Shown: in pieces, positions 6,138 to 31,118 of the stretch
How the letters are laid out: each line of letters begins with the position of its first letter
How positions within the stretch are numbered: the stretch's first letter is position 1
NCBI GenBank assembly: GCA_017550315.1
Contig: JAFZPN010000080.1
Coordinates: 1-32,413 of the forward strand
Source: Clostridia bacterium
GTDB lineage: Bacteria; Bacillota; Clostridia; Oscillospirales; CAG-272
Length of the DNA: 32,413 nt
Direction of reading: 5' to 3'
The notes under the pieces: model-generated
Told to the model about the DNA's origin: nothing
The model's input: only the letters and a program-made list of their open reading frames with translations
Database searches by the model: none
Translations under genes and position numbers: made by a program

Positions 6138-6926
6138 TCAGTTGCCCCCGCAGGAACCGTGCCCGCAGCCGCCTCCGTGGTGTCCGCACGCGTGCTCTTC
6201 CCCGTTTTCGTTACCGCAGCTTTCGCCGTGGCGTCCGCACGCGTGATCTTCCCCGTGCCCATGCCCGTGGTGATCGCATTTCGCGTCGGGATCGAACCGG
6301 AGCGTCCCTTCCGCCAGCGCCTTAGCCGCAGCGTCCGCCGATCCCGTCACGCCGCCGTAAAGCGCGATCCCCGCTTCCGCCAGCGCGTTCTGCGCGCCCA
6401 TGCCGATGCCGCCGCAGATGAGGGCGTCGACCTGCGCCGCTTTCAGAAAGCCGGCCAGCGCGCCGTGACCGCTTCCGTTCGTCGGGACGATCCGCTCTCC
6501 GACAATTTTCCCGTCCATGACGTCATAGATCTTAAACTGTTCCGTGTGTCCGAAATGCTGAAAGATTTCTCCGTTTTCGTAAGTGACCGCGATTCTCATG
6601 GTATTCTTTCCTTTCTCCGGAATCAGATCCGTTTTTTGATTTTCCAGCGCATAACTCCCGCCCCGGATGCGAAGCTCCTTGCCGTCGACAAGGGCTTCGG
6701 CGATCTTGCGGCGGGCGTTTTCGTAGATGGCGGTGACGGTGGTCCGCGCCACGCCCATCCGTGCGGCGCATTCCTCCTGCGTCATCCCCTCCCGGTCGAG
6801 CAGCCGAACGGTCTCGAACTCATCGAGCGTCAGAACGACCGGATCGCCCTCTGGATGCTCCTCCGGCGAGAAGACCCAGCAGTCCGGGTATCCGCCGATT
6901 TTTCGGCAGCGCGGTTTTCTCGGCAT
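6138..6926 (-). CDS. DUF134 DNA-binding domain fused to NifX/NafY-like cofactor domain with His/Cys tail
   Basis: A 262-residue fusion. Residues 1-95 are a DUF134 domain, a sigma-70 region-4-like helix-turn-helix (MPRKPRCRKI, then LDEFETVRLLDREGMTQEEC and VARTTVTAIYENARRKIAEA). Residues 109-210 are a dinitrogenase Fe-Mo cofactor domain (MRIAVTYENGEIFQHFGHTE, then VDALICGGIGMGAQNALAEA). The last 45 residues are a metal-binding tail with two tandem 17-residue units containing GE(D/E)HACG. The protein is probably a metal- or cluster-sensing regulator or carrier; no nif genes are in the window. GCAAAGGAGGCGG fixes the start. It leads the operon with the YunG-like and DUF5714 genes. This fusion is known in Clostridia; what it senses is not. 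Confidence 0.88.
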   Translation of the reverse strand: MPRKPRCRKIGGYPDCWVFSPEEHPEGDPVVLTLDEFETVRLLDREGMTQEECAARMGVARTTVTAIYENARRKIAEALVDGKELRIRGGSYALENQKTDLIPEKGKNTMRIAVTYENGEIFQHFGHTEQFKIYDVMDGKIVGERIVPTNGSGHGALAGFLKAAQVDALICGGIGMGAQNALAEAGIALYGGVTGSADAAAKALAEGTLRFDPDAKCDHHGHGHGEDHACGRHGESCGNENGEEHACGHHGGGCGHGSCGGN

Positions 6927-7023: not shown

Positions 7024-7575
7024 TTATTTCATCCGCTTCTCGAACCGGAACATCCCGTCGAAGCTGTCGTCCCCGTCATACGCGTTCTCTTCTCCGGTCT
7101 CGGGGTCGTGCGGATCGGGATGGAACCGATTGAAGAACTCCACGGCGTGGAAGCCGCATTTGTTGATGTAAAAGTGAATGTTGCGCGTCTCGAAATACGG
7201 CGTGCAAGTCTCCCAGACAGTAACGTCAGGATACAGCCGTTCCACCTCGCGCCACGCTGCTTGACCGATCCCCTTGCTGTGCGCCGCGGGCTCGACGAAC
7301 AAGAGCTCCAGATCTCCCCGCCGCGTCTCTTCGTCGATGTGCAGAACAACCCCGCCGACGATCTGACCGTTTTCGCGGATGCGGTAAGCGGTACCCCCGT
7401 CGATGCTCTGCTCGATGGTCCTGCGGGAGATGATTTCGCCCTCCTCCTCAAAGTGGTCGTCCCGCTGCCCGAACTCCTGCATGGCGCCGAATTTGAAGGC
7501 GTACTGGTTGTCCTTGATGAACTGCTCGCGGTCGTCCTCCGTGAGGGGCGTGAGGGTGATGTTCTTTGCGATCAT
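7024..7575 (-). CDS. GNAT family N-acetyltransferase
   Basis: A 183-residue acetyltransferase. Motif A/B is seen as GQIVGGVVLHID, then GDLELLFVEPAAHSKGIGQA (acetyl-CoA pyrophosphate loop HSKGIG), then WETCTPYFETRNIHFYINKC, which is the GNAT motif B with the aromatic cofactor contacts. The substrate is unknown. Start: the ATG at 7575 is used because GGAGG lies 6 nt upstream; an in-frame ATG at 7632 lies inside the terminator of the leader and is not supported by the second leader copy, where that frame ends before the gene. It is expressed behind its own promoter and a structured leader, which suggests conditional attenuation. A truncated paralogue, 86% identical over 64 residues, lies at 30749-30943. 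Confidence 0.88.
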   Translation of the reverse strand: MIAKNITLTPLTEDDREQFIKDNQYAFKFGAMQEFGQRDDHFEEEGEIISRRTIEQSIDGGTAYRIRENGQIVGGVVLHIDEETRRGDLELLFVEPAAHSKGIGQAAWREVERLYPDVTVWETCTPYFETRNIHFYINKCGFHAVEFFNRFHPDPHDPETGEENAYDGDDSFDGMFRFEKRMK

Positions 7576-7715
7576 AGCTAACCTCCAAGAAAAAATGCCC
7601 GCAGCAAAAACTGCTGCGAGCGCACTCGTCATCTTATCCGGCAGGCGGCCTGCAAAGCGAGCCGAAACACGCTTTACGATCCCCTACGCTGCGGCGTACT
7701 GCCCTCCGATGAATC
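7576..7715 (-). ncRNA. Structured 5' leader of the GNAT gene (copy 1), putative attenuator
   Basis: A 140-nt untranslated leader runs from the predicted start (GATTCATCGG) to the ribosome site. On the minus strand it holds a hairpin AAAGCG/CGCTTT (7654-7675), a hairpin GCAGG-CCG-CCTGC (7641-7653) and a terminator stem CGCAGCA/TGCTGCG with six Ts (7590-7618), then GGAGG (7582-7586). The upstream segment CCGCAGC (7688-7694) is exactly complementary to GCTGCGG in the terminator's 3' arm, so an alternative fold could release the gene. A copy with about six differences precedes the GNAT remnant at 30.9 kb. It lacks T-box or other leader motifs I can recognise. The RNA function and any ligand are inference. 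Confidence 0.6.
7590..7618 (-). terminator. Intrinsic terminator inside the GNAT leader
   Basis: A 7-bp stem CGCAGCA/TGCTGCG with a 5-nt loop is followed by GGC-A and six Ts, only 3 nt ahead of the GGAGG ribosome site. Its place before the gene rather than after it makes it an attenuator. Confidence 0.7.
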
Positions 7716-7721
7716 GTAAGA

Positions 7722-7750
7722 ATTATATCATGTTTTTCGGGGATTGTCAA
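7722..7750 (-). promoter_or_regulatory. Perfect consensus promoter of the GNAT leader
   Basis: TTGACA (7745-7750), 17-nt spacer, TATAAT (7722-7727) on the minus strand. The predicted start falls at about 7715, exactly where strong similarity to the second copy begins. Confidence 0.85.
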
Positions 7751-30598: not shown

Positions 30599-30755
30599 AG
30601 ATTCTGTTTTTCAACAGCAGTCCGAATCCGAAGGGCAACACGGCTTCGGTCTCGGTACCGGCACGGTTGCGGAAGGCTGGATCGAAAACGCTGTAGGGTT
30701 CTGGGAAAAACAGATAGAACAAAAAATGAAAGACGGAAAATATGGCAGTCAGTAA
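30595..30755 (+). pseudogene. Flavodoxin-fold NAD(P)H oxidoreductase with its middle deleted
   Basis: The start MKILFFNSSPNPKGNTASV is the FMN-phosphate loop of flavodoxin-like reductases. A few codons later, in another frame, come LGTGTVAEGWIENAVGFWEK and QIEQKMKDGKYGSQ, the usual end of such proteins. About 17 N-terminal and 36 C-terminal residues of an expected 180-200 survive, so more than 100 residues were deleted. The start still has AAGGAGCACAGGATATC in front of it. Confidence 0.8.
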
Positions 30756-30943
30756 GCGGTGCCGCCGTCGAGACTCTGCTCGATCGTTACGCGGGAGATG
30801 ATCTCGCCGTCCTCCTCGAAATGGTTGTCCCTTTCCCCGAACTCGGCCATTGCGCCGTATTTGAAGGCGTACTGGTTGTCCTTGATGAACTGCTCGCGGT
30901 CGTCCTCCGTCAGGCGAGTAAGGGTGATGTTCTCTGCGATCAT
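30749..30943 (-). pseudogene. GNAT acetyltransferase, 5' remnant (paralogue of 7024-7575)
   Basis: It encodes 64 residues starting MIAENITLTRLTEDDREQFI and ending SLDGGTAY before TGA. Of these, 55 match the first 64 residues of the complete GNAT. The acetyl-CoA-binding part is missing, and the tail overlaps the flavodoxin remnant. The promoter, leader and ribosome site ahead of it are nonetheless well preserved. Confidence 0.92.
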
Positions 30944-31081
30944 AGCTTCCTCCGAGAAAAAATGCCCGCAACAAAAACTGCTGCGAGCGCACTCGTCATC
31001 TTATCCGGCAGGCGGCCTGCAAAGCGAGCCGAAACACGCTTTACGATCCCCTATGCTGCGGCGTACTGCCTCCGATGAATC
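30944..31081 (-). ncRNA. Structured 5' leader (copy 2)
   Basis: A 138-nt leader with about six differences from that at 7576-7715 (single-base indels near GGAGG and after the ribosome site, and four substitutions). All hairpins are kept; the one change inside the terminator turns a C-G pair into a U-G wobble (3' arm TGTTGCG), so pairing survives. The gene it once controlled is broken, so its good preservation needs another explanation: recent duplication, gene conversion, or a function of the RNA itself. Confidence 0.6.
30957..30985 (-). terminator. Intrinsic terminator in leader copy 2
   Basis: CGCAGCA (30979-30985) pairs with TGTTGCG (30967-30973), then GGC-A and six Ts. It lies just ahead of CGGAGGAAGCT and the ATG of the GNAT remnant. 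Confidence 0.65.
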
Positions 31082-31087
31082 GCACAT

Positions 31088-31118
31088 AGTATATCATAAT
31101 TTCTATATGGATTGTCAA
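31088..31118 (-). promoter_or_regulatory. Promoter of leader copy 2
   Basis: TTGACA (31113-31118) and TATACT (31088-31093) are separated by 19 nt, 2 nt more than in copy 1. The spacers of the two copies differ strongly, while the hexamers and everything after the start are conserved. Confidence 0.6.

Follow-up and report, generated by a model that had tools for sequence, protein, structure and literature searches.

What lets RNA polymerase pass from a leader into the gene behind it is the question raised by the 32,413-nucleotide (nt) contig JAFZPN010000080.1 of the Clostridia bacterium assembly GCA_017550315.1 (the whole stretch analysed here, called the window), in which a minus-strand gene for a GNAT-family N-acetyltransferase is preceded by a promoter, a structured RNA and an intrinsic terminator. 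We consider it about 70% probable that this leader is a riboswitch-type transcription attenuator, acting as an ON switch with a small-molecule ligand. The reading draws on the homology of the leaders, the helices they share, the overlap of these helices with the terminator, and the gene contexts. The features expected of a riboswitch are found together here: a covarying structured leader with conserved unpaired bases, an overlapping expression platform, and several unrelated gene families downstream.

The leader, of ~140 nt, is predicted to start at ~7715 and to span 7715-7576 on the minus strand, as do all features of the window given below. Its sigma-70-type promoter (7722-7750) matches the consensus at 12/12 positions, with TTGACA at 7750-7745, TATAAT at 7727-7722, a 17-nt spacer, and a TG preceding the second hexamer. 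The terminator hairpin GCTCGCAGCAG/TTGCTGCGGGC (7597-7621), with a T run at 7595-7590, ends 3 nt ahead of the ribosome site GGAGG (7582-7586), and the GNAT gene (7024-7575, 183 amino acids, PF00583 E 3.7e-11) begins with ATG at 7575-7573. The consensus promoter and the terminator placed 3 nt before the ribosome site are thus as the initial annotation of this DNA had described them. Scans of a 1-kb region found two promoter-like sites, compared with 0.4 (standard deviation 0.7) in shuffles, and two terminator-like sites, both of them the leader hairpin, compared with 0.9 (standard deviation 1.0); taken alone, these scans are weak evidence for the leader. The leader goes beyond chance because it recurs, with compensatory changes, before a second GNAT gene in the window, a third in the genome, and GNAT genes in another family of the order (G054).

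The fold was described with two covariance models, R1, built from six leaders, and the broader R2, and with an alignment (A6) of 56 model-found leaders, comprising 53 distinct rows from 54 loci with duplicates of the window's own copies omitted. In the window, the conserved aptamer-like core, delimited by covariance-model matches and covariation, occupies 7616-7712 (97 nt) and is of a long form with five predicted helices. P1 would pair CAUC (7708-7711) with GAUG (7633-7630), and P2 would pair GGCAG (7699-7703) with CUGCC (7644-7640), the 3' strands of P2 and P1 (7630-7644) being covariation-supported and separated by GGAUAA. The remaining helices are the hairpins P3 (UACGC-CGCA-GCGUA, 7685-7698, loop 7693-7690), P4 (7652-7677), which is missing in short forms, and P5 (CGAG-UGCG-CUCG, 7617-7628, loop 7624-7621). 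Changes on both sides are seen in 21/25 pairs of A6 (P1 3/4, P2 4/5, P3 5/5, P4 6/7, P5 3/4) and amount to 251 cells compared with 77 in shuffles, and 96.8% of cells are paired compared with 76.8% when shuffled and 29-37% when slid, although A6 was fitted to the covariance-model structure and these figures hence lean towards that structure. Examples independent of the fit come from MAFFT alignments, in which CAUC/GAUG is replaced by CACC/GGUG and GACAG/CUGUC by GGCAG/CUGCC. The five helices P1-P5 are therefore strongly supported by compensatory changes. In A6, bases in the hairpin loops and the internal loop are nearly invariant, including the GGAG/GGAUAA internal loop between P1 and P2, and the core is 57-99 nt long, with 23 rows of the long form. 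The consensus elements are P1 CAUC/GAUG, a P3 loop of CGCA or CGUA, and P5 CGRG-UGMG-CYCG, giving the signature CGGAGG...GGAUAAGAUG plus a CGRGUGMGCYCG hairpin. The initial annotation had seen an attenuator-type leader with two hairpins and proposed looking for homologous leaders in Clostridia with compensatory changes; such leaders exist and covary strongly in their hairpins, and the leader is real, while the larger P1-P5 fold and a second copy in the window had been missed.

In the window, the two folds share the CTCG strand on the 3' side of P5, a sequence also contained in the terminator 5' arm. According to a simple script, the terminator 5' arm covers the P5 3' strand in 41/56 leaders and the P2/P1 3' strand in 7/56, which makes 48/56 with an overlap, two of them (L033, L055) doubtful. 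Because the terminator 5' arm shares a strand with the conserved fold, aptamer folding should block termination, as in an ON switch. The calculated energy of the window leader is -52.1 kcal/mol for the terminator fold compared with -44.5 kcal/mol with P1-P5 forced and no ligand, suggesting a leader that is off unaided and on once something holds the aptamer. In the mechanism we propose, RNA polymerase would start at ~7715 and transcribe the leader, and without a signal the terminator would take up the P5 3' strand and halt transcription ahead of the GNAT gene. With a small molecule bound, the P1/P2 helix with its GGAG/GGAUAA loop would form together with the P3 hairpin, and P5 would be held, probably by kissing between the P3 and P5 loops, so that the terminator would be blocked and the GNAT gene transcribed. 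A variant arrangement was seen in L188, where a long-form RNA (1501-1588) lies ahead of a MATE gene, and in L140 (2487-2574), which has identical downstream sequence; this form is perhaps a translational version.

A different switch had been proposed in the initial annotation, in which CCGCAGC would pair with the 3' arm of the terminator. The segment (7694-7688) is indeed exactly complementary to GCTGCGG at 7605-7599, but the full complement is found in only 2/23 long-form leaders of A6, both of them the window's copies, and we rejected this pairing as the switch because it is not conserved. CCGCAGC makes up the loop and 3' strand of the conserved P3 hairpin, and forcing the alternative pairing gives -44.9 kcal/mol for the window leader.

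Kissing between the P3 loop (CGCA) and the P5 loop (UGCG) is likely but unproven. The two loops are complementary in most members. At the inner positions, the pairs in A6 are GC 30, CG 1 and other 20, and CG 27, UG 21 and other 3, and L056 has one clear double change, CCCA with UGGG. Among 111 distinct RNAs found by a sequence pattern (described below), CGCA occurs with UGCG in 59 and CGUA with UGAG in 29, compared with mixed loops in a few (CGUA/UGCG 7, CGCA/UGAG 2), the other 14 having rarer loops or hairpins misread by the script. Shared descent may partly explain this preference, because the CGUA/UGAG type is common in long forms; by an eye count, the CGUA loop is present in 14/23 long-form rows of A6. 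The P3 loop is missing in L037 and L044 and altered in L045, all three of which have a P5 loop other than UGNG.

The second copy of the core in the window (30983-31078) is matched by the covariance models and has one G fewer in the GGAGGG run and one broken P3 pair. It is followed by a truncated GNAT gene (30749-30943) that reaches TGA after 64 codons, and promoter, leader and GNAT start together span 30749-31118, with a promoter spacer of 19 nt (counted by eye); the copy looks as if it were decaying. A third copy in the genome (C175) precedes a complete GNAT gene 92% identical to that of the window, and the two other genome copies are 97% and 89% identical to the window leader over ~200 nt. 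A first BLAST survey found the leader in 5/59 genomes, the own genome included; in three of the four others the match covers approximately the first 100 nt without the terminator, and the match in the fourth, a close relative, extends over the terminator as well. R1 found the RNA in 32/394 genomes of the order, representing 28/169 genera, and R2 in 17/391 genomes of the class and 3/398 of the phylum, the own genome being counted in each of these tallies. Within the order and class, several families carry the RNA ahead of homologous GNAT genes, whose starts were read by eye.

Among named genomes, a scan with a sequence pattern returned at least 118 stretches, and all figures given on these 118 describe the matches listed and are not frequencies. 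R2 confirmed 100/100 of the loci tested. By an eye count of the titles, 88 name Clostridia or groups that we place there, 12 name Bacteroidales or members of it and 4 name Actinobacteria (Adlercreutzia, Coriobacteriaceae, Bifidobacteriaceae, and one more); single metagenome-assembled genomes belong to Elusimicrobiales, Lentisphaeria, Acholeplasmatales, Anaeroplasmataceae and Anaerolineaceae, and the remaining titles are unspecific or name other Firmicutes. Gut or rumen samples are named in many titles. Two patterns gave no match to the RNA in viral contigs. A short-form leader had no match in plasmids; 29 plasmid records carry GNAT homologues, and R2 found no RNA in the five submitted to it; phages gave no GNAT match.

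The initial annotation had placed the RNA ahead of the acetyltransferase gene, but it is not confined to GNAT genes: shorter forms precede exporters of the MATE, ABC and MFS types. Each locus was classed by the called gene or either of the first two downstream open reading frames, with family names checked on representatives only. On this basis, 101/118 loci carry an exporter or a GNAT gene after the RNA (MATE 38, GNAT 29, ABC exporter 20, cytidylate-kinase-like gene plus MATE 10, MFS 4), the ABC exporters often standing two in a row. Grouped by length, matches of at least 83 nt precede GNAT in 27 loci, MATE in 4, other genes in 4 and a sequence end in 2, matches of 64-80 nt precede GNAT in 2/23 classed loci, and matches of 52-56 nt precede no GNAT in 47 classed loci. 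Tandem RNA copies lie ahead of ABC exporters in L118, L137 and L073, and two or more copies also occur in L031, L038 and L076.

Around these genes we noted several further features. The cytidylate-kinase-like gene (PF13189 for L093) adjoins the RNA-controlled MATE gene in the 10 loci counted above (L093, L101, L121, L136, L138, L150, L153, L164, L177, L181), which suggests that the two share a role. A small open reading frame with a repeated ending (e.g. WGRSPP or CGRSPP) lies between or after RNA copies in L038 (1384-1500), L031, L039 and L137, and might provide a second, peptide-based control. In the window, the GNAT gene is followed by a gene at 6138-6926 containing MPRKPRCRKIGGYPDCW, whose product we take to be DUF134/NifX-like, and a homologue also follows the GNAT gene in L108.

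The RNA, with or without P4 and additional junction parts, would control three exporter superfamilies and the GNAT gene; a toxic gut compound, removed by export or by acetylation, is hence the most probable ligand, and the downstream genes fit the drug or metabolite signal that had been suggested for the window leader alone. More tentatively, and at somewhat less than even odds, we propose a hitherto unreported class of riboswitches that would respond to a single toxic or antimicrobial compound widespread in animal guts and govern a defence regulon of MATE, paired ABC, MFS and GNAT genes shared by Clostridia, Bacteroidales and Actinobacteria, the long form with P4 being tied to the acetyltransferase. 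Riboswitches with orphan ligands point to chemistry that is important to cells; here, identifying the ligand would reveal a molecule that numerous gut bacteria export or chemically alter, and would offer candidate substrates for a set of multidrug-type pumps and for a GNAT. With a core of only 57-99 nt and a readout as simple as terminator read-through, the question lends itself to direct tests.

Besides the lean of the A6 figures, several observations weigh against the riboswitch reading. The script assigned no terminator overlap in 7/56 leaders, and no terminator was found in L188. Among the 118 matches listed, 17 have no gene assigned as exporter or GNAT (the kinase-like gene alone in 2, other or unrecognised genes in 7, and sequences ending within less than 300 nt in 8). 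In the putative kissing loop, the outer pairs are invariant in A6 (51/51 and 50/50 rows with letters), and the pairing as a whole does not exceed that of shuffled columns, 116/500 shuffles scoring as high.

These points bear on how the RNA should be read, and four other explanations have to be weighed. A protein that binds the RNA and stabilises its fold, as in protein-dependent antitermination, would suit the structure and gene association as well. We regard this as unlikely, as no shared regulator was found among clustered downstream same-strand genes (upstream and opposite-strand genes lay outside the survey), and the RNA precedes unrelated genes in several phyla and has long invariant loops, both usual features of small-molecule aptamers. 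A small open reading frame that starts in the P1 3' strand might instead mediate attenuation through the ribosome, and an AUG (43) or GUG (7) does stand there in 50/53 distinct leaders, yet three leaders have no start codon at that site, 50 frames end after 3-206 codons and three have no stop within the sequence read, the peptides are alike (by eye) only over the P5 codons, and the start codon changes together with CAUC in the way expected of a helix. A conserved leader peptide was thus rejected for want of a conserved frame in the 53 distinct leaders, and this mode of control is very improbable. The closely similar copies in the genome could also mean that the leader is a terminator plus a repeat that spread recently and senses nothing, which is hard to reconcile with compensatory evolution across families and orders and with the small set of gene families that follow the RNA in most of the matches listed; we give this reading next to no weight. 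The fourth explanation is that the RNA belongs to the published orphan candidate Gd4v, a variant of guanidine-IV, as that motif itself or as one of its branches, and this is weighed below beside guanidine-IV.

The initial annotation had recognised no T-box, riboswitch or ribosomal-protein leader motif in the leader. At the gathering cut-off, Rfam 15 gave no match in the window and, in 15 related loci, only a tRNA in one. A permissive scan of the window leader gave trpB as the best match (22 bits compared with a cut-off of 59), while permissive scans of five related loci gave nothing convincing at the core; trpB, far below its cut-off and not seen in these five loci, was rejected. The RNA is best read as an orphan riboswitch-type attenuator, in its long form preceding a GNAT gene, whose class was found in no library searched. 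The passages seen of PMC11109978, PMC8632094, PMC8040213, PMC2965389, PMC2864571, PMC7266159 and PMC6429828 describe no other published candidate; supplementary tables (e.g. the 3,161 predictions of PMC8040213) lay outside this comparison and might contain the motif.

The known system nearest in design is guanidine-IV (GGAM-1, mepA motif), described in the passages seen of PMC7736828 and PMC11611296 as two hairpins thought to kiss in a terminator ON switch that precedes MATE genes. It differs from the RNA here in hairpin 1 (UGCCACCGGGUA) and, in most of our own examples (L200, L201, L221, L345-L364), loop 2 (GUUAGGUCNNNGAAG), lacks the P1/P2 helix with GGAG/GGAUAA, and also precedes sugE and PnuC; among the 118 matches listed, 101 carry other gene classes and neither sugE nor PnuC was recognised in the rest. 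A guanidine-IV pattern matched in 4/196 genomes of the class, two of these being judged real, and a covariance model (R3) was built from three leaders (L200, L201, L221) located via SMR exporters and this pattern. R3, whose seeds score 81-87 bits, reached E values of 0.01 or lower in 40/148 genomes of the class. Guanidine-IV loops are present in its 20 top-scoring loci and in 14 of 20 lower matches, the other six lower ones looking like chance; the loci lie mostly ahead of PnuC or MATE genes, as published, plus SMR and a few others, as read by eye except for some SMR genes. R3 matched the core neither in the window nor in any of the 52 leader loci given to it, its best non-seed matches, two weak ones (L007 and L008, 16 and 15 bits), lying beside the core, and R2 matched neither L200 nor L201. 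Because the two models do not cross-match and the loops differ, identity with guanidine-IV was rejected. Rfam recognises Guanidine-I in 9/16 SMR-gene loci (L190-L205) and leaves the guanidine-IV leaders in L200 and L201 without a match. We also noted guanidine-IV-type leaders ahead of pyridoxamine-phosphate-oxidase-like genes (by eye) in L373 and L383, an association not named in the passages seen on guanidine-IV.

Gd4v, according to the passages seen of PMC9788692, is extremely close to guanidine-IV in both sequence and secondary structure, precedes a transaminase gene in more than half of cases and, like guanidine-IV, also precedes MATE and GNAT genes; the three Gd4v RNAs tested there come from Negativicutes or Synergistetes. 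Like the RNA of the window, it occurs in gut bacteria with GNAT and MATE genes, is designed as a terminator-based ON switch, and has an extra hairpin on the terminator. Identity would fit the shared genes and phyla, the position of P5 atop the terminator in some short forms (e.g. L042), and the lack of G at the base after P1 (T in 42, C in 7 and A in 7 of the 56 leaders), the corresponding position in Gd4v being guessed. Against it stand the likeness to guanidine-IV and the main transaminase gene, neither of which was found here in a comparison by description: the two models do not cross-match, no transaminase was recognised in the 17 loci listed without an exporter or GNAT (eight end early and the others are partly identified), and the titles of the 118 matches listed, some of them unspecific, name no Negativicutes or Synergistetes. 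None of the 20 best and 20 lower R3 matches has the Gd4v extra hairpin. We find the identity doubtful and keep a small share of probability for it because Gd4v was compared by its description and not by its alignment. The small-molecule riboswitch that we prefer has a further parallel in the yjdF (azaaromatic) riboswitch, which differs in having an Rfam family (RF01764, with no match in the window) and is likewise, in the passages seen of PMC7266159, a possible sensor of toxic compounds placed before a protective gene.
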